Part shown: one piece after another, positions 1-16,545 of the stretch
Layout: every line of letters begins with the position of its first letter
Numbering within the stretch: position 1 is the stretch's first letter
From: Hysterium pulicare CBS 123377
Taxonomy: Eukaryota > Ascomycota > Dothideomycetes > Hysteriales > Hysteriaceae
Length of the DNA: 26,168 bases
Assembly (NCBI GenBank): GCA_000467715.1
Contig: AJFK01000169.1
Span: 1 to 26,168, forward strand
Direction of reading: 5' to 3'
Made by a program: the position numbers and the translations under genes
The notes under the pieces: generated by a model
The model's input: only the letters and a program-made list of their open reading frames with translations
Database searches by the model: none
Told to the model about the DNA's origin: nothing

Positions 1-24
1 GGGGGAGGGGAGGGGGGAGGGGGG
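1..24. other. G-rich tract at the left end
   Basis: The window opens with an almost pure G run broken by single A residues. It does not match the usual fungal telomere repeat (TTAGGG/CCCTAA). With the G run at the other end it suggests a contig boundary or a sequencing artefact. Confidence 0.6.
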
Positions 25-470
25 TTACCGCCTACCGGTTGTCTATAAAGCCTTGCCTTTTCTTCTTGCCTGCTTCCGGTTCTTCACTTTTCGGCACGTT
101 GGTCTGGCTAGCCATTAAACTATGTCACAAAAGACCATATGGATGTTCCGTGCCTACTTATGCGTTGTCAATCCACGGAACGAAGGGAAAGAATGGGTGC
201 GTTCTGGTGCTAAAGCACTGTAGAGCTTATGAATATGTGGTGGACCGTGGCTGGGTTCAACAATAGAACTGCTGAGGGTCGATGGGAGTGTGGATTGTGG
301 TGTTGGCGAGTGAGGATGCAGAGAGATTATGTGCAAGTAGCGAAAGGGGGAGGTGATGTGATGATGAGACTTACTCCTCCTATTTGCTAAAGGTACTCAT
401 CTATCCTTATTATTTCTTAAACACAACTGCCAACCCCATCCTAGCTCCACCAAATCATGTACAGGCATCG
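1..470 (+). repeat. Array unit 1 (left-truncated)
   Basis: TATA at 44-49. The ATG at 139 opens a 24-codon ORF that keeps the hydrophobic CLLM start and ends in a Trp-Cys pair. G-rich block at 284-300. The GATA site lies outside the window or in the G tract. Confidence 0.6.
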
Positions 471-940
471 CTTATCTAATCCACGCACTCCCCGAAATAC
501 TTCTCTCTGCAGGTATAAAGGCCTTCCTCCTCCTTCACTTCTTCCATCTCCTTACTCATGGTATAAATGCCGGGCTTGCCATCAACTTTCGGGATGAAGA
601 TGCCATGGTTTCCTTCGTGCCTGCTTCTGCGCCTTCAGGCAAATGAAGAGCTGGTTCGTATGTCGGATTGGTACCGAAACATGCAAAGCCCACGGTATGA
701 TTTATACTTGCTGGGTCCAATTCGGGAAGCAAAGAAAACCGAGTGGAGTGTGGAGTGTGGGAACGTGGATTGTAAGATGCCTGCTATTGGAGTTGATAGG
801 CTTAAGAGAGGTGGTGGTGAGGTGCGAGGCTCTTGGGTGGTGAGCCTCATCACTATTACTATTCAGCTCCATCATCCCCAGCTATATGCGACCTCTTACC
901 CCCTCCCACCACCTGATCTCAACTATGTACGTAGTACGGC
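471..940 (+). repeat. Array unit 2
   Basis: GATA-type site 471-480, TATA 514-519, ATG 605 (13 codons, frame shifted relative to units 1 and 4), TTGGTACCGAAAC block near 669, GAGTGTGG block 741-760. A second TATAAA at 562-567 is extra to the unit pattern. Confidence 0.65.
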
Positions 941-1414
941 TTATCTAATCTAGCTCTCGCCTTTCCCTCCTTCCGACCATCTATAAAAAGCTCACTTCCT
1001 TCTTCCCTTCCCGGATCTCTACCTACTCCTCACTTCGAGCCCAGAGCCTGATCGGCCATCAAGTCCACGATCGATTCTTTCATGGTCCATTTGTGCTCTG
1101 CTTCTGCCTCTTCAATCAGATATTGCCGGCATCGAATAGGCGTTTTTGGGCGACAAAAACAATTCAGAAGCGAATAGGTGTGGTATTTGAAGCACTTATG
1201 GACTACATAACAATGGGAGTGTGGAGTGTGGAGCGTGGAGTATGATTGTAAGGCCGACTCTCGGAGTTGATGTTTGTAGGAGAGGTAGTGATGAGGGCCA
1301 GGTTTGATGGTGATGAGCTTCATTAATACTCTCTAGCTTAACTATCCCAGGCTATAGAAGATCCTAACCTTAGCTCCTGTGGTAAGACTAGAAGGCCTTG
1401 GTGGATAATATGGG
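941..1414 (+). repeat. Array unit 3
   Basis: GATA-type site 941-950, TATA 982-987, ATG 1082 opening a 31-codon ORF. The GTGTGGAGTGTGG block at 1214-1240 is the longest of this motif in the array. Confidence 0.65.
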
Positions 1415-1920
1415 TTATCTAATCCGTAGCTCTTACTCTCGGATATAAAACGCCCCTCTTCCTTCTTCTCCGCTTCTGACTCCTCACTTCCTGCACAACT
1501 GGCAAGTCTTTACTTGGACTTTCTGAAGTGATCAACCAACAGAAGTTTTCTCCGTCATGGTCGTTTTGTGCCTGCTTCTGCGGCTTCACCGCGTCCGAGA
1601 AAGACTCGGAATGTGGGTTTGGTGCCAAAGTTGAAATAGCTAACGAAACATGTGGTAGTTGCTCTGGCTTCAATCAGACAAAACGCGGGACATTATGGGA
1701 TTTTGGGGTCGTTGATTGGGGTTGTAAAGTCTAATCCTTGAGTTAATAGTTTCGAGAGGAATAGAAGAGGTTGGAAGTGAAGTTCATTTCTCGTCTTTAC
1801 TGAAGGTCTTCATTATTGTTGTCATCATTACCATTATCTTTTCATTCAATTTCCAGCTATAGAGAATTTTAAACTTAGCCCCTACGCCAAGATTAGAAGC
1901 ATTTTGACCAATAGAACAGC
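1415..1920 (+). repeat. Array unit 4
   Basis: GATA-type site 1415-1424, TATA 1444-1449, ATG 1557. The ATG opens a 25-codon ORF beginning MVVLCLLLRL, the best signal-like start in the array. The TTTGGTGCCAAAG block is at about 1618-1630. The GTGTGG block is weak. Confidence 0.65.
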
Positions 1921-2377
1921 TGATCTAATCCACTCCCTCCTTTCCAAGTATAAAACCTCTCCTTTTCGTCGCTCGTCGCCCTCTTCTCGTTCTCCACTCT
2001 AATCACATAAGATCAAGTTGCTATCAGACGCCTGCCGCCAAGCTTCATCATGGCCGCTTTTGTGTCTGTTGTTGGCGAATTGGCTCTTCAATCTCGCAGT
2101 GTGAAGAACAATATGGATTTTGCGTCAACAAAAAACACGGCACGAAGAAACAATGTGGTGGTTGTTCTGCCTTCCATAGCATGAAGCCAAAGCAAAGCAT
2201 GAGATTGTGGAGTGTGGTCGTGATACCAGCATCTAGTGTTAGTAGTCGTGAGAGGATACTTGGTGTAAAGTTCAATTCTCATCTTTACTGCAGGTCTTCA
2301 ACATCATCCAGTTTCATCATATTCTGATCACAATCATGCCACTCGTCACCTATTCTACTGTCACTTTACTGCGCGGC
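1921..2377 (+). repeat. Array unit 5
   Basis: GATA-type site 1921-1930 (first T replaced), TATA 1949-1954, ATG 2050 opening a 44-codon ORF. GTGGAGTGTGG block near 2206-2217. Confidence 0.65.
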
Positions 2378-2830
2378 TTATCTATCAACTCTTTCCTTTT
2401 CTTCCCGACGCCCCTCTCCCTTCCAGGTATAAAACCTTCCTCGTCCTCAAAACTTCATAAATTGGATACAGGATTGAACAAACTTTAAGCAGCTGAGGTT
2501 AGCTTGACATCAATTGGAACAAAATCTCTTACAAATGGTTCCTCTGTGCCTCCACCGATGTATCTTCAACGGTAGCCAACCATTGGTGCTTTGGGTACCA
2601 AAAGTAGATTTCTTGTGGCTTGATGCTGTGGCTGTTGAGTTCAGTTAAGGAGATTCATCTGCGGTCATGGGAGTTCGGTTGTACTCGACGTTGCCGACAT
2701 TATTCAAGCTGAGGTGGAGTGCTTATCAATGATAAGCTTCGTCACTATTCGCCTGAACCATCTCACACTGTGGAGGCTTCGTCTCCCTAACTCCTTCGGG
2801 CAAAAAAGAAGCATTTGATGTTTGAACCGC
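2378..2830 (+). repeat. Array unit 6
   Basis: GATA-type site 2378-2387 (TTATCTATCA variant), TATA 2428-2433, ATG 2535 opening a 37-codon ORF beginning MVPLCL, followed by a TTTGGGTACCAAAA block. Confidence 0.6.
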
Positions 2831-3142
2831 TTATCTAATCCCCTGCCTAAATGCTGACTTTCTAGGTATAAATCCTTCTCCCTATCTTTTACTCCCTCCG
2901 TCCCCTTACTGCGAACTAGGTCTGACCTTCTATTACCTTCTCAAAGAAAGACTCATGGTCCCTTGCCGCTCAGCAGTGTTCTTTAACCCAGCGAGCCAAC
3001 CCAGAAATGGGATTCGTTGTCAAAACCTCAGATGGACGACAATATGTGGGTGGTGGAGTGGTTCATTAAGGATCTTGAGGAAGTTATGGGCGCTTGGTAG
3101 TATAGAGTATCACAAACTATGTCATTAAAGGGCTAGCACGGC
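2831..3142 (+). repeat. Array unit 7 (short)
   Basis: GATA-type site 2831-2840, TATA 2867-2872, ATG 2955 opening a 57-codon ORF. At about 312 bp this unit is shortened, apparently in its 3' half. Confidence 0.55.
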
Positions 3143-3612
3143 TTGTCTAATCAACCGCCCTCCTTTTCCTTAAAGCCTTTCTCCCTATATGTAACTAGCC
3201 TTCGTATTCTTCCACTCCCCAATCCTCACTTTAAACCCAAAGGCTTGGCTTTTCATCTATTATGTGGGAACATAGATTCGCATGGTCTCTGTGTGCTTGC
3301 TTCTGAATCTCAAACAGCCGCCGCGACCTTGGTGGACTGGTGCCAAAACGTGGCCTATCGTCATTGTATGTGGTCGCTGTTGGCGGGGTTAGATGTATGG
3401 ATAATGGAGGTTGAGTTGAGCGTTAAGAGTGAGAAAAGACCAAGAAGTGATAGAACAGAATTGGAAAAGGGGAAGGTGGTGAGCATCAGCTTTACACCTC
3501 GTGGTTGATGGAAGTGCTCATTACTCATCCATCCTCAGCCGCAGTCACTCCATCCACCGGTACTCCATTCACTGGCCACAGCCCTACATCCCTTCTCATA
3601 AGATAGTGCAAC
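3143..3612 (+). repeat. Array unit 8
   Basis: GATA-like site 3143-3152 (TTGTCTAATC, one change kills the GATA core), TATA degraded to CTTAAAGCC near 3170. The ATG at 3282 opens a 36-codon ORF beginning MVSVCLLLNL. GACTGGTGCCAAAACG block near 3337. Confidence 0.55.
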
Positions 3613-4044
3613 TTAACCAATCCACCCCTATCCTTATCTTCCTAGATCTAAGACACTCCTTTACTTCTTTCCTTTCTCACTTCTGATTCCTCACTTTCTG
3701 AATATCAAGCGATTTCTCAAGTTATCAACTAGCGCCTAAGAGCCCTATAATGCCTGCTTTAGATACTCTGCTTGTGTCAATGATTGAGCGAAGACTCTTC
3801 AAGATATGGGTTTTGGGTATATTATGCTCTGGATACTGGGTGGGTTAAACTCAGAGACTATGGAAATCGATGAGAGTGTGGAGTGTGGAGTTAGTGAGGA
3901 ATTGAAAAGAGAGAAATAAGTGGCAGTGAAGATGGAGAAGGTCGCGATGATACTACTTATTCCTCCATGGTTACTGAGGGACCGATTTCGGGTATCTATA
4001 AATTGACTACAAGAGCTCAAGAGATGGCACGACATATCTGTTCT
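3613..4044 (+). repeat. Array unit 9 (degenerate)
   Basis: GATA-like site degraded (TTAACCAATC, 3613-3622), TATA degraded (ATCTAAGAC near 3646). The ATG at 3750 aligns with the TGCCTGCTT block rather than with the usual start. A clear GAGTGTGGAGTGTGG block is at 3871-3890. Confidence 0.5.
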
Positions 4045-4474
4045 GCTTACTCCCCAAATCCCGTAAACCTTTCTCCCAGATATAAAACTTCCCACTTTCC
4101 TGCACTTCGGACAACACTGGACTGGCCTCTTCCAAGCTATCGATAAACAAGAAAAAACCGTCACAAGGTCCTTCGTGTCCGCTTCTGTGTCTTCAATTGA
4201 TCGGAATAAAGATGCACATGTGGCAAAGTCGCAGAATAGGAGTAGGTCACCGAGTCCGCTGTTGGTTGGATTCTCCAAAACATCCTCATACTCATGGGAT
4301 TTCGGAGTGGGTATTGGCAGAAGTGTCGAGTGAGCATAGAGGGTAAACTTATTTCATACTTTATAGTCGCTGCTGAGGTTCATCATCACCGTTACGCTGC
4401 ATCGATCACCTTTACTACAAGAGCTCTAACACTTTAGGTAAGCCGACTTTATGAGTTTTGAAGACGTAGTGCGG
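4045..4474 (+). repeat. Array unit 10
   Basis: Intact TATA at 4081-4086, GATA-type site lost. The usual ATGGTCC is AAGGTCC at 4165, so the mini-ORF has no start, yet the following TCTTCAATTGATC block is retained. Confidence 0.5.
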
Positions 4475-4485
4475 CTAATTTAATC

Positions 4486-5083
4486 GCGCTGTAGCCAAAC
4501 CTCCGAGCATCGGAGATGGAATATACCTTAAGAGAGGTTTGCCGAAGAAATCTGAAGGCTTTTAATCTTTGCCTCACACGTAAATACTGAGAACACGTAA
4601 AATCCCTGTTCCACATGCTTGCCTCATTTCCCCCAAATCTCTCATTCCTTTTGGTACTTCACGTGATTCTCTCCTACGGACTAAAACTGCAAGACTCTTT
4701 CTATGCCTCCAAAGTCCAGGCCATCGGCTTGATTAACAACCTGGTTGCCATGTTCTTGTCGTGTGAGGTCGAATAAAAGAACAATGACCCTGGTTGTCTC
4801 CAAGTATTGTCATTCCTTTGTCAGGCCTGCACCAAGCCATCCTTTGTACATGCATCCTGAACGCAATCTTGCATGCATTGAGCCATCCTTTGTACAAACG
4901 TATGGCCAGAACGCCATCTTGCAATACAAATAAAGTGCAGATAGACAATGACTTTGTCTAGTGTGCTAAAGATAGGCGTGAATGAAATACATGTATCTGG
5001 CTATGATAATGAAATCGTTCATCAGAAGATATCGAGCAATCTCGAAGCACACAATCTAATCTCAATAACCAAAGCAAGAAAAA
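4486..5083. other. Intergenic region upstream of the first SET gene
   Basis: About 600 nt with no gene I can support. It contains a two-copy direct repeat (4835-4923) and an A-rich stretch just before the ATG at 5084. No clear TATA box is seen close to the start. Confidence 0.5.
4835..4923. repeat. Two-copy direct repeat, period about 46 bp
   Basis: AGCCATCCTTTGTACA occurs at 4835-4850 and again at 4881-4896. Each copy is followed by a variant of GAACGCNATCTTGCA (ending near 4873 and 4923). A looser partial copy may lie just upstream near 4808-4825. Confidence 0.7.
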
Positions 5084-6175
5084 ATGGCGGCGAGGCGAAC
5101 AGCAGCAGCGGCTGGTACCGTAAAACCAGGGGGATCCACTCTTCAGAAGCAGATTGCGACGAAGAGGAATACGAACCAGGTACGCAAGCCATCCCAAACG
5201 AAGCCGCCAAAGAACATAAACACCTTGCAAAGATCCCCCAGCATCAATACCCAGATCTCCAAACAAATAGAAATGAAACCTCTCGTTCAAACTCCATACT
5301 ATGCCCCAACACTAAGCTGCCCCGAAACGTTTTTCTACACATCAGACTCCAAGACCCGAATCCGCAACAAGGGTTGCGGTATAGCCCCCAAGAGCATCAA
5401 CACTTGCATCGTCGATGCCGAAGACTGGATTGAGATTCCCACGCCTCGAAACTTCACCAGCGAAGAATTCCGAAACCTCACACCGGAGAAACTGCTAAAA
5501 GTCAGAGCCGGAACTGAGTTGGTCCCACTGATCTGTCTAGGGAGAAAGTGTTGGAGCGATACGGATGTATGGGGTGATGCATGTCCCAGTAATGCAGCAA
5601 GACGTGGCCGGAACCAAACCTGCACGCACACGTTCAAGGAATGGGCCAGTGGCGGCTTGAAGTGGCAGTCTCGGTTTGAGTTGGTAAGTGCCGGAGACAG
5701 GGGCATCGGCGTGCAGACCAAAGTTCCGTGGAAGAAAGATGACGTTTTGGGTTGCTATATCGGGCAGATACTTCCGAAACCGTGGTTTGGGGATGACTAT
5801 AGCTTTGCAATTCCTGTAGGGCCGAACATTGCGGGTAGGGGTAGGAGATCTGTTGGTTATATCGACGCGGTGGAATATGGGAATTGGACCCGGTTCATTA
5901 ACCACTCCTGCGATGCGCACTGTATTTTTGAACTTTGTCGGGTGGGCGATACGTTGGTAGTTGCGGTTGTTGCGCGGAAGGATATAGATGCCAATGTCGA
6001 GGTTACGGTGAATTATGGGCATGCATATTTTGAGGGGAGGGAATGCTTGTGCGGAGCAAAGAACTGCGTAGAGAGGAAGAAGATGATGATGGAGAAAAAG
6101 AACGAACCGGAGGCAAAGAATGGAGGACGCGTCTCTAAGCGTCGTCGAAAGCGCCTGACTTGGAAAGTGCGATAG
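5084..6175 (+). CDS. SET-domain protein 1 (putative lysine methyltransferase)
   Basis: A single-exon gene for 363 residues, starting at an ATG in an A-rich context. The SET domain spans about residues 196-312: DRGIGV near 205, the YIG turn at 225-227, RFINHSC at 270-276 and VNYG at 309-312. The post-SET CLCGAKNC (321-328) has the canonical CxCxxxxC spacing, which with C276 would form the usual zinc site. So the S-adenosylmethionine and lysine pockets look intact. Before SET lies a module shared with the two SET proteins at 12414-13670 and 14275-16545: DW near 114, a C-LG-x-x-C-W cluster (151-157) and C-x-H-x-F-x-EW (180-187). The tail is short and basic (SKRRRKRL), a likely nuclear signal. 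The N-terminus resembles histone H3 (see findings). Substrate unknown; the SET call is strong, activity is inferred. Confidence 0.88.
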   Translation: MAARRTAAAAGTVKPGGSTLQKQIATKRNTNQVRKPSQTKPPKNINTLQRSPSINTQISKQIEMKPLVQTPYYAPTLSCPETFFYTSDSKTRIRNKGCGIAPKSINTCIVDAEDWIEIPTPRNFTSEEFRNLTPEKLLKVRAGTELVPLICLGRKCWSDTDVWGDACPSNAARRGRNQTCTHTFKEWASGGLKWQSRFELVSAGDRGIGVQTKVPWKKDDVLGCYIGQILPKPWFGDDYSFAIPVGPNIAGRGRRSVGYIDAVEYGNWTRFINHSCDAHCIFELCRVGDTLVVAVVARKDIDANVEVTVNYGHAYFEGRECLCGAKNCVERKKMMMEKKNEPEAKNGGRVSKRRRKRLTWKVR

Positions 6176-12413: not shown

Positions 12414-13670
12414 TTAATTCTTTTTGGGTCTTCCAGGCCCGCGTTTAATGACCTTGCTGCCTTGCACACCGGATCCTGCGGCATTGGTGTTTGCGTCCTT
12501 TCGCGGTCTTCCGCGTTTCTTTGGAGCTGGTGCGCCGCCTTGAGCACCGGATCCTGCAAAGTCGGCGGTTTGGTTCTTTGGTGGCCTTCCGCGTTTCTTT
12601 TGAGCTGGTGCGCCGTCTTGAGCATCGGATCCTGCAGAGTCGGCGGTTTGTTCTTTTGGCGGACTTCCGCGTCTCTTTTGCCCTGGTGCGTCACGCTGCC
12701 TAGCATCCTCGCACTTTGTACAATGGCATCCACCAGTTGGATAAGCAACGAACCTGTAATCGTTTGCTTCCTCCGCGTCCGTATCACTCATATAGCTTAC
12801 GGTTATCTCCTCGCCGGCAGCAATGAGCCTTCTAGCAACCACGGCAAGGACATACGTACTCCCCACACGGTACGGTTGGAAGTAGGTGTTTGCATTGTGG
12901 GAATGGTTAATGAAGCGGGTCCAACTTCCAGCCCTTTCAGCATCAATGTAAGCTTCTTCGAGTTTATGTTTAATATTGCGTCTTCTGTTCGGTCCTATAG
13001 GTATCTTCATTCGGTAATCCGAGTTGTTCCCCATACTCAAAGGGATAAGCTTGCCAGTATAGGCACCTAGGACATCATCTCCGTCCAAATGTATTCTAGC
13101 CCGTGCCCCGACTCCTCGATTATCGGTTTCAAATAGTTCAACCATGGCTCGCCAACCATGTGGACCATTGTCAATCCATTCGTTAAACGTATGATCACAT
13201 TCTGGCTTGTCCTGGTCCTTCTTCATCTTTTTCTTTCTCCCTTCTTCCTGCTCGAAGGGCTCGTTGCTGTGGCACTCAATATCGTTTATATTCTCTCCCC
13301 AAGTTGGACCCAGGCAATCGTAACCACAGTCGACATTTTTTCCCGTAACGGTTAGCAGATGGTCTACCGTCAGTGAATCCCAATGTCTTGGAAAGATGTT
13401 CCAGGGTTTCTGCTCGAGCCTCCAATCTGCCGGATCAATCGTAATTCTGTTCTGCTCTACAGGGATTATGGTGGCTCCGCCTGGTTGATTTGCGTTGCCG
13501 TTGGTAATTACTCTACGGTCTCTCAAGCGGAAGGGTTGCGGTGGCGGTGGCGGCAGCGGTGGTGCTGCTGGCGCTCCTATATTAGGAAGGGGAGGATTTG
13601 GAGGTAGTGGTACTACTGGTGGTCCTGCTTGGCCGTTCCTAGCCTTTACCTGGCTTCGTGTTTCTACCAT
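12414..13670 (-). CDS. SET-domain protein 2 with tandem AT-hooks
   Basis: A single-exon gene for 418 residues; the ATG is at 13670. A proline-rich N-terminus (17-46) is followed by the module shared with the other two SET proteins (ADWRLEQKPW 81-90, LLTVTG 105-110, CLGPTW 119-124, CDHTFNEW 158-165). The SET domain is about 172-293: DNRGVG 183-188, AYTG 203-206, RFINHS 252-257. The zinc site is altered: the usual NHSC is NHSH (255-258) and the post-SET is CHCTKC (315-320) rather than CxCxxxxC. SYM replaces the usual YG after the catalytic-position Tyr. Residues 332-407 are three 26-residue repeats, each beginning with an AT-hook-like KRGRP (the first degraded to RRGSP). A final KRGPGRPKK follows. 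AT-hooks bind the minor groove of AT-rich DNA, so a chromatin role is likely; methyltransferase activity is doubtful. Confidence 0.87.
   Translation of the reverse strand: MVETRSQVKARNGQAGPPVVPLPPNPPLPNIGAPAAPPLPPPPPQPFRLRDRRVITNGNANQPGGATIIPVEQNRITIDPADWRLEQKPWNIFPRHWDSLTVDHLLTVTGKNVDCGYDCLGPTWGENINDIECHSNEPFEQEEGRKKKMKKDQDKPECDHTFNEWIDNGPHGWRAMVELFETDNRGVGARARIHLDGDDVLGAYTGKLIPLSMGNNSDYRMKIPIGPNRRRNIKHKLEEAYIDAERAGSWTRFINHSHNANTYFQPYRVGSTYVLAVVARRLIAAGEEITVSYMSDTDAEEANDYRFVAYPTGGCHCTKCEDARQRDAPGQKRRGSPPKEQTADSAGSDAQDGAPAQKKRGRPPKNQTADFAGSGAQGGAPAPKKRGRPRKDANTNAAGSGVQGSKVIKRGPGRPKKN
12450..12677 (-). repeat. 78-bp tandem repeat encoding AT-hook units
   Basis: Three in-frame copies of a 78-nt unit (26 residues: KKRGRPPKNQTADFAGSGAQ and so on; the third is 25). 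The first two are very similar, the third more diverged. It lies in the 3' end of the SET protein 2 gene and multiplies a DNA-binding motif. Confidence 0.8.
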
Positions 13671-14274: not shown

Positions 14275-16545
14275 TTACTTCTTTCTTGTATTACTAGGCT
14301 TTCTACCTCTCTTCCCTTTAGCAGGCCCTTGTGTTTGCTCTTCTGCATTTGATGTCGTATTAGGATTTACTACTGGACGCGGTCGTGGTCCCGTTGGTAT
14401 ACGACTGGTAGTACCGCCCGGTCTTGTAGTAGTATAAGATCCAGCCCCTGCCAGCCCAGAAGAGGGTGGGGGTATGGCAGTTTGTCCGCCTTGAACGTCA
14501 GGTTCTTTTGTTGCATTTCCCTTACCTTTTGCCGGATTGCTTTTACCGGTCTCTTTGCCTGTGGACTTACCTTCTCCATTTTTGCCAGTCTCAGTGGTTT
14601 TGGACTGACCCTTGTTGTTAGGTTCTCTTCTGGTAGGTTTGTTTCTATGAGTTCGGCCACCATCTTGTGGACCTCCTTCGCCTTGATTTGGTTCGTTGTG
14701 GGGGTCCGAGGGATCGTCATGCCCATTTCCATTTGACTGCCCTGTAGTCTGCTTCTTGGAAACGCAATTATCGGAACCGCATCTGCATATTGTCTTTGAA
14801 TCGATAAAGTACTTCTTCCCGTAATCTACCGTTACTTCCTGGCCTGATTCGATGTCGTTCGTTGCAATGACTGCAAGGACCGATTTTGCACCCACCCGGC
14901 GCGTGAGGAATCTCGTGTCGGATTTGCAGTGGTGGTTCAGAAATCGTGTCCAGGATCCGCAATATATGGCATCAATGTATCCCTTGGGATACCCTTCTTC
15001 GAAATCGGGGTGTATGGCGCCCGGTTGATCATCTGTGGGGTGGATTTTCCTTGGTTTTGGCAGTCGAGGACCAAACCGGATAGGTAAACAATAACCACTA
15101 CCCGAGTCTTTTGGAATAAGCTTACCAGTATAAGCACCAAGAACGTCGCCACTTTTCCACGCAACTTTGGTGAAAACTCCAATTCCCCTATCTTCCGTTT
15201 CTTTCAACTCAAAACGAGTCTCCCATTTGTCTCCGCCACTGTACCACTTAGCATACTCATGTTGGCACTCTGAGACTTCGTCTCGCCTGTTCTGTATGCA
15301 CCGTGTTTTTTTGGTCTGTAGCATCTCTTCGCTTCCCCAACAAAACTGACCAAGGCATGAGTCGAAATCTGTAACACCCCTACCAAAGACTGTGAGCATT
15401 CTTTCTGTGTTTCTTGGTGGCCAGTAACTTTTCTTAAAGTTCCAAGGCATTTTGACATCTCTCCAATCTTTTCGGTCAAGGACGACATCTCGAACATACT
15501 CCGGTTTAACGCCGTCTCGCATTACGATGTCCTGGTCCGGGTTATCGACCGTGCGGAAATAGCAGGGTTTGGGACGATCAGCAAGTCCTGAGGGGTTTAC
15601 TTCTCTTGCATCAATTTCGGCACATTCTTCGATTTCTGACCTTTCTTTTTGTTGACCTTGTAGCCGTTTACTTCTTCGTAGATCGATCTTACGTTTCTTC
15701 CCATTTTCAATTTCCTCACCAGGAGCCTTCTCACCTTCCACGCTAGGCCCATTCTCACCGTTCTCGTTAGGTCCATTCTCATCACCCTCCTCTTTCTCTT
15801 CCTTATTGGGTCCGAGTGGAGGGCGGGCAGCTACGGTGTAAGGTTCCATGTTATCGATCTCTATATTGCTCCCATTCTTGACTTCGTCATTAGGGCCATT
15901 CTCACCTTCATTGCCAGGCCCATTCTGCTCAGCCTCCTCCTCATCCTCCTCATTGGTCGGAGGGAGGGCAGCTACGGTGTAAGGTCTGAAGGTATCATCG
16001 TCGATATCGGCCCCGTTCTCAGATTCGTTGTCATCGGAGCCGGAGTCAGTGACATTGGAGCCGAATTCAGTGATATCGGAGTCGGATTCAGTGATATCGG
16101 AGTCGAATTCAGTGATATCGGAGTCGGATTCAGTGATATCGGAATCGAATTCAATGCCGTCGGGGTCGGATCCGTTATCACTGGAGTCGGGTTCGTTGTT
16201 AAATCTGCCAGATGCTACATCGGCCGCGACTAGTTCTGCATGTTTTTCAGCCAATTGTTCTGGTGTCATCATAAGAGGAAGAGCAGCGACTGTGTAAGGA
16301 CCAATACTGTCCTGATACATGCGCTGAGCCTTGCGCGATCTTTCCTCGTCGATCCTCTTAAGGTTATTTAGGCGTCGCCGTTTACGCGGCTCATCCTCAT
16401 CGACTTGATCTACAAACTCCGGGGCTTCACGTGCCCATACTGTGACCCGCACCTGGTTAGTCCAATAGTTTAAGACACGAGTTTGGCGGGCTTCTTCTGC
16501 GTCTTGTAGGACTTGATCCCAGTGGGATCTGGGACGCTTCGTCAT
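14275..16545 (-). CDS. SET-domain protein 3, large acidic form
   Basis: A single-exon gene for 756 residues, ATG at 16545. The N-terminal half is acidic: basic RKRRR (54-58), four [FS]DSDITE heptads (134-160), Glu/Asn/Gly-rich stretches, and three copies of PYTVAA[LR]P at 83-90, 188-195 and 235-242. A bipartite-like KKRKIDLRRSKR (283-294) is a likely nuclear signal. The shared module follows: KDWRDVKMPW 359-368, LTVFG 384-388, CLGQFCW 397-403, C-x-H-E-Y-x-KW 427-434. SET is about 441-577: DRGIGV 452-457, AYTG 471-474, a long insert with GYIDA near 522, RFLNHHC 534-540 and VDYG 573-576. The post-SET CRCGSDNC (587-594) is canonical. NHHC instead of NHSC is unusual but the zinc Cys is kept. The low-complexity Gly/Lys/Pro tail ends in an AT-hook-like KRGRKP (744-749). 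Nuclear chromatin function inferred. Confidence 0.87.
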   Translation of the reverse strand: MTKRPRSHWDQVLQDAEEARQTRVLNYWTNQVRVTVWAREAPEFVDQVDEDEPRKRRRLNNLKRIDEERSRKAQRMYQDSIGPYTVAALPLMMTPEQLAEKHAELVAADVASGRFNNEPDSSDNGSDPDGIEFDSDITESDSDITEFDSDITESDSDITEFGSNVTDSGSDDNESENGADIDDDTFRPYTVAALPPTNEEDEEEAEQNGPGNEGENGPNDEVKNGSNIEIDNMEPYTVAARPPLGPNKEEKEEGDENGPNENGENGPSVEGEKAPGEEIENGKKRKIDLRRSKRLQGQQKERSEIEECAEIDAREVNPSGLADRPKPCYFRTVDNPDQDIVMRDGVKPEYVRDVVLDRKDWRDVKMPWNFKKSYWPPRNTERMLTVFGRGVTDFDSCLGQFCWGSEEMLQTKKTRCIQNRRDEVSECQHEYAKWYSGGDKWETRFELKETEDRGIGVFTKVAWKSGDVLGAYTGKLIPKDSGSGYCLPIRFGPRLPKPRKIHPTDDQPGAIHPDFEEGYPKGYIDAIYCGSWTRFLNHHCKSDTRFLTRRVGAKSVLAVIATNDIESGQEVTVDYGKKYFIDSKTICRCGSDNCVSKKQTTGQSNGNGHDDPSDPHNEPNQGEGGPQDGGRTHRNKPTRREPNNKGQSKTTETGKNGEGKSTGKETGKSNPAKGKGNATKEPDVQGGQTAIPPPSSGLAGAGSYTTTRPGGTTSRIPTGPRPRPVVNPNTTSNAEEQTQGPAKGKRGRKPSNTRKK
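16051..16146 (-). repeat. 21-bp coding minisatellite ([FS]DSDITE heptads)
   Basis: About four and a half copies of a 21-nt unit (GATATCGGAGTCG with alternating GATTCAGT/AATTCAGT on the plus strand) inside SET protein 3. Alternation of F and S at the first position gives a 42-nt higher-order period. It extends the acidic region. Confidence 0.85.

Follow-up and report, generated by a model that had tools for sequence, protein, structure and literature searches.

A tandem array of ten units

We analysed a stretch of Hysterium pulicare CBS 123377 DNA (contig AJFK01000169.1 of assembly GCA_000467715.1), hereafter the window, that is a complete contig (C136) of 26,168 bp in an assembly of 37.2 Mb and 596 contigs. 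At the start of the contig, at ~30-4454, ten diverged units (U0 to U9) lie head to tail, and the first gene after them encodes a SET-domain protein. With unit borders set near a GATA-like block, the TATA boxes of successive units are 470, 468, 462, 505, 479, 439, 323, 457, and 434 nt apart; a preliminary description of this DNA had given a period of mostly 435-505 nt, which agrees with the 434-505 nt measured here with the single exception of 323 nt.

All ten units lie on the plus strand, and a profile built from nine of them recovered the left-out tenth in 10/10 trials, with E values (given in parentheses below) from 1.3e-12 to 2e-43. The first unit, U0 (1..450), is incomplete at the 5′ end, the array being cut where the contig starts at base 1; it begins with a G-rich tract (1-24) and has TATAAA at 44 and an aligned ATG at 139 (match at 36-450, E = 7.6e-24). 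G-rich or poly-G tracts are present at both contig ends (1-24 and 26150-26168) and are perhaps assembly break points. U1 (451..919) carries GCTTATCTAATC at 470, TATAAA at 514, and the block ATG at 605 (E = 3.7e-35); the same elements stand in U2 (920..1393) at 939, 982, and 1082 (E = 1.7e-29) and in U6 (2810..3121), which is short at 312 nt, at 2829, 2867, and 2955 (E = 1.4e-13). U3 (1394..1899) has GGTTATCTAATC at 1413, TATAAA at 1444, and the block ATG at 1557 (E = 2e-43), and U5 (2357..2809) has GCTTATCTATCA at 2376, TATAAA at 2428, and the block ATG at 2535 (E = 1.3e-14). The GATA core is lost in U4 (1900..2356), where GCTGATCTAATC at 1919 precedes TATAAA at 1949 and the block ATG at 2050 (E = 3.4e-26). 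Degenerate TATA boxes are found in U7 (3122..3591: GCTTGTCTAATC at 3141, TGTAAC at 3190, block ATG at 3282; E = 1.6e-22) and in U8 (3592..4011: ACTTAACCAATC at 3611, TCTAAG at 3647, block ATG at 3750; E = 1.3e-12). U9 (4012..4454) has a weak GATA block at ~4030 (ATATCT core) and TATAAA at 4081, and AAGG takes the place of its block ATG (E = 5.6e-14).

Measured from TATA, or in U7 and U8 from the remnant that aligns with it, the block ATG follows after 91, 100, 113, 101, 107, 88, 92, and 103 nt in U1 to U8, and the block-aligned ATG of U0 lies 95 nt past its TATA. The range of 88-113 nt, proposed earlier for eight units, is thus occupied by nine of the ten.

The offset test compared 16-mers with at least 13 matches in region 1-4500 against 100 shuffles. 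Offsets 450-479 gave 97 positions and offsets 480-509 gave 43 (shuffle mean 0.6, maxima 6 and 7), accompanied by a second rise at offsets 900-989 (18, 38, and 17), where the double period is visible, and minor excesses of 8 to 11 each at offsets 300-329, 360-449, and 540-569. The total for offsets 420-510 was 151, vs. a mean of 5.1 and a maximum of 19 in block-shuffles preserving local composition. Self-comparison at offsets of 430-505 nt had been named in advance as the check on which the array could fall; the signal is far above that of shuffled sequence, and together with the leave-one-out recovery it bears out the proposal of ten units. The array is a tandem repeat derived from one unit, with shared ancestry along its length and a single orientation. 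When both strands of the window were searched, all 10 matches fell on the plus strand, the top plus-strand match of the leave-one-out profiles past 4500 had E = 0.049, and a profile search of 4431-5083 gave no eleventh unit. A look-alike GCTAATTTAATC at 4474 was rejected as a further unit, having no profile support.

Pairwise identity among units is 40-53%, and satellite-type homogenisation of the copies is not seen. Adjacent units are slightly more alike than distant ones (mean identity 0.467 vs. 0.446, matched by 37/5000 random orders), in keeping with growth of the array by stepwise tandem duplication. To reproduce the mean conservation of the units, simulations must redraw ~36-44% of sites per unit, and the array is therefore old. 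We rejected repeat-induced point mutation as the cause of this divergence: C-to-T rates are nearly equal by context (CA 0.22, CC 0.20, CT 0.19), with no CpA preference, and the substrate index (CpA+TpG)/(ApC+GpT) is 1.24 in the array, similar to the flanks. TpA/ApT is 0.83 in the array vs. 0.65-0.75 in eight other stretches, a difference to which the TATA boxes contribute partly.

As far as searched, the units occupy one locus, and a diverged copy elsewhere is possible. GCTTATCTAATC-N18-48-TATAAA had three genome matches, all in the array (control 0); TATCTAATC-N12-42-TATAAA had four, all in the array (reversed control pattern 5); a gapped pattern of the ATG block and its 23-mer with up to 3 mismatches each had two, both within the array (control 0 in each case); and a consensus unit matched seven places, 7/7 in the array. 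These pattern searches see 3, 4, 2, and 2 of the ten units, respectively, and the consensus sees five (U0, U1, U2, U3, and U5). DNA queries with native units are insensitive, as they match only themselves and miss neighbouring units. Exact GCTTATCTAATC occurs six times in the genome (reversed control 3), three times in the array and three times outside it (contigs C141, C361, and C535), and no units were found around the outside sites. GGGAGTGTGGAGTGTGG with one mismatch gave five matches, four of them in the array (control 3); the fifth, on C161, has only a weak unit-model match (E = 0.11). A profile scan of thirteen stretches of C13, C133, C134, C135, C137, C138, C139, and C141 (C135 whole, the others partial) revealed no unit (best E = 1.8). 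Thus, the 37.2-Mb genome yielded no unit outside the array in searches that fail to detect at least half of the units already known. The starts of C135 and C138 are very AT-rich, unlike the array, which suggests AT-rich genome compartments.

Conservation of promoter-like parts

Conservation is uneven along the unit. Mean pairwise identity across 15-column windows ranges from 0.25 to 0.61, with peaks at the GATA-like block, TATA, TCCTCACTT, the ATGGTC..TTTGTGCCTGCTTCTG block, TGGTGCCAAA, and GGGAGTGTGG. The best-kept hexamer of the unit is TATAAA, exact in 8/10 units (runner-up 6). The array (4.45 kb) contains TATAAA 10 times on the plus strand, eight of these being the unit boxes, and twice on the minus strand; the remaining 21.7 kb of the window contains it twice on the plus and five times on the minus strand.

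We compared these values with simulations of uniform decay in three settings matched to the observed mean conservation (100 runs each). None of the 300 runs reached the observed variance, and none kept a hexamer intact in at least eight units (largest 7). Because neither value was attained, we consider it well supported that at least the TATA box has been under selection after the duplications. Earlier simulations, in five settings with 40 runs each, did not have their mean conservation matched to that of the units, and our conclusions rest on the 300 matched runs. In three unmatched settings 0/40 runs were as uneven as observed; at p 0.30 with an indel rate of 0.035 or 0.05, 5/40 were at least as uneven, with clearly higher mean conservation. 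Two readings had been offered beforehand, selection on the transcription of each unit and slow decay of a tandem family of tiny genes; the TATA counts agree with promoter parts that outlast the rest of the unit, and slow decay, if uniform, is left the weaker reading.

The GATA block had been described as a GATA site before the TATA box in most units. Its placement holds, the block being separated from TATA by 18-40 nt in U1 to U9 (with only a rough position in U9); the site itself holds less well, HGATAR being intact in only five of the nine units that have the block (U1, U2, U3, U5, and U6). What recurs is the whole 12-mer GCTTATCTAATC, of which the right half CTAATC, kept in six units, is slightly better preserved than TTATCT, kept in five. 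HGATAR density is 4.27 per kb in the array and 3.04 in the rest of the window. A GATA factor is a possible regulator, yet these figures do not single it out, and the earlier suggestion of one gains no special support.

Downstream of TATA, the pyrimidine fraction over 40 nt is 0.80-0.88 in 7/10 units and lower in U7 (0.72), U9 (0.65), and U5 (0.57), vs. an array background with mean 0.53 and 95th percentile 0.75. Most units have a TATA box and a pyrimidine tract at a fixed place, as in an RNA polymerase II (Pol II) type of promoter. TATA followed by a pyrimidine-rich tract and then a conserved TCACTT is how strong Pol II promoters of filamentous fungi usually look, although a literature search gave no backing for this.

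The unit body and the neighbouring genes

The bodies of the units show no sign of a shared protein. Three-base periodicity is absent, the match autocorrelation having no lag-3 peak; 70/369 pairwise indels are divisible by three; and the best translated scores average 37.8 on the plus and 36.4 on the minus strand, the forward strand being better in 25 of the 45 unit pairs and the reverse in 16, with 4 ties. None of the seven open frames tried had a Pfam match. Indels of 1 nt within the ATG block shift the reading frames between units, and no frame is conserved. A small secreted cysteine-rich protein, for which segments common to, e.g., U3 and U4 were considered, was rejected since the best frames vary by pair and the reverse strand does nearly as well.

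These results bear on a fast-evolving family of tiny peptide genes that would start from the conserved ATG. Nine units do place that ATG 88-113 nt after TATA, and the open reading frames (ORFs) that start from it average 34 aa vs. 21 in shuffles (matched by 20/500; eight of the ten units examined). With the frames shifted between units, 70/369 indels being multiples of three, translated similarity about equal on both strands, and no Pfam match in the seven frames tried, we regard such a family as very unlikely, and the tiny genes suggested in the preliminary description find no support as protein genes.

The same results enter the case for a decaying tandem pseudogene family, in which small genes with promoters intact for long would have lost their function recently, leaving the promoter still better kept than the body. 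Motif losses in several units (U4, U7, U8, and U9) and the lack of a conserved reading frame are what such decay would leave, whereas uniform decay was matched by 0/300 simulations, and a long past as protein genes should have left the three-base periodicity that is absent; a past as noncoding RNA genes is compatible with the data. On balance we consider this explanation doubtful; together with tandem regulatory DNA (below), it is one of the two chief competitors of the reading that we favour.

Nor does the body resemble a folded RNA. No consensus base pairs were found across units, alifold returned none on the transcript-only parts, the mean fold z over the ten units was 0.19 on the plus and -0.23 on the minus strand, and the fold of U3 was no better than shuffles (z = 1.14). 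Rfam gave no match at gathering score in the window (hence no rRNA) and none up to E = 1 in 1-4500. We rejected a structured RNA family (small nucleolar RNA, small nuclear RNA, tRNA, and the like), there being no conserved fold, no Rfam match, and no hit in a tRNA scan, and likewise rejected RNA polymerase III units, since the whole array contains a single T-run of at least 5 and no tRNA. As far as sequence can tell, the products of the units would be neither conserved proteins nor folded RNAs.

The SET-domain gene after the array lies at 5084..6175 on the plus strand (Pfam SET E = 1.2e-13; open frame 5069-6172). Further SET genes are present on the contig at 12417-13700 and 14278-16713, both on the minus strand, and three of the 29 SET matches in the genome lie on this 26-kb contig (intervals 5069-6175, 12414-13700, and 14275-16713). 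We saw no functional link between the array and the SET gene. Tandem regulatory DNA, i.e., a homotypic promoter- or enhancer-like cluster that would control an adjacent gene, for instance the SET gene at 5084, and whose transcripts, if any, would be a by-product or work through interference, would account for conserved islands that resemble DNA motifs, for a body without recognisable product, and for the orientation of the array towards that gene. However, the two are separated by ~630 nt that show no similarity to the units, the unit model had no match up to E = 1 at 26 SET loci outside the contig (~3.3 kb each on average, with short flanks), and the contig ends at the array, hiding any other neighbour; we judge this explanation unlikely.

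Some repeats lie outside the array. At 4825-4896, past the array and before the SET gene, a short GCCATCCTTTGTACA-like sequence is directly repeated at a distance of 46 nt. The second SET gene contains, at window positions 12459-12690, three copies of a 78-bp repeat encoding KKRGRPPK-like segments that resemble AT-hooks. The third has, at window positions 16033-16194, a 21-bp tandem repeat encoding an acidic ESDSDIT stretch, and also repeats a PYTVAA(L/R)PP motif.

Candidate transcription units and related arrays

The reading that we favour, and to which we give about an even chance, is that the units form an old tandem family of Pol II transcription units that bear promoters, are probably noncoding, and are partly kept by selection. 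Under this reading the ~460-bp unit would have, in itself or in the unit from which it descends, a plus-strand Pol II core promoter that consists of the upstream 12-mer GCTTATCTAATC, then TATAAA, then the pyrimidine-rich tract, and last a putative start region near TCCTCACTT. Each unit would probably yield, or until recently have yielded, a transcript of ~300 nt that is noncoding or has unconserved micro-ORFs only. The array would have been built through stepwise tandem duplication, after which the copies may have drifted apart while selection acted chiefly on the promoter and some short islands. The units, their order, and their uneven conservation are observed, as is the lack of detectable conserved coding or structure; that the units are transcribed, where transcription starts, that selection acts for it, and what the transcripts or the act of transcribing would do are inferred. 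In a narrower version, selection would keep promoters and start regions in a long-lived row of ten noncoding Pol II units and leave the transcribed sequence nearly free to change, so that transcribing would itself be the function, perhaps under a nutrient-responsive factor at GATTAGATAAGC; this is possible, if somewhat doubtful.

In the unit body, C-to-T changes relative to the majority consensus (41/202) exceed G-to-A changes (42/367), which is weakly indicative of transcription of the plus strand, this being the direction expected from it. Several points weigh against the favoured reading. The promoter columns also lean C-to-T (52/275 vs. 10/79), although they would be partly untranscribed, and the majority consensus is a rough stand-in for the ancestor. 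The peak conservation over 12 columns is not unusual, being matched by 21, 35, and 8 of 100 simulations in the three settings, and the decay simulations presuppose a star tree with the consensus as its root. Some units seem decayed: the TATA of U7 and U8 is degenerate, HGATAR is lost in 4/9, and U9 has lost its ATG. No product can be named, because there is no coding periodicity, conserved fold, or Rfam match, and the slightly long ORFs from the block ATG leave unconserved micro-ORFs possible.

We compared the array with known systems. Tandemly duplicated gene families with TATA promoters are likewise head to tail, with a promoter-like block of their own in each unit and with neighbours more alike, whereas the body of the array has no conserved coding frame or RNA fold. 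Satellite DNA with an internal promoter shares the head-to-tail units of a few hundred bp; in contrast, the copies described here are only 40-53% alike and have not been homogenised, are known from one locus as far as searched, and keep their promoter motifs better than the rest. Ribosomal DNA spacer promoters and the 5′ monomers of rodent LINE-1 elements are also tandem repeated promoters upstream of another gene, but in the array the promoters are TATA-type and Pol II-like, the window has no rRNA match in Rfam, and the SET gene is ~630 nt away. Among titles and abstract openings of the literature on arrays or promoters, no description of such an array was found.

If the units are transcribed, the array would amount to ten natural replicates of a single promoter, diverged under selection. 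It could then reveal directly which promoter parts are required in a filamentous fungus, and it would clearly exemplify transcription maintained without a conserved product. If they are silent, it would be a good test bed for distinguishing decaying arrays from those that are kept.

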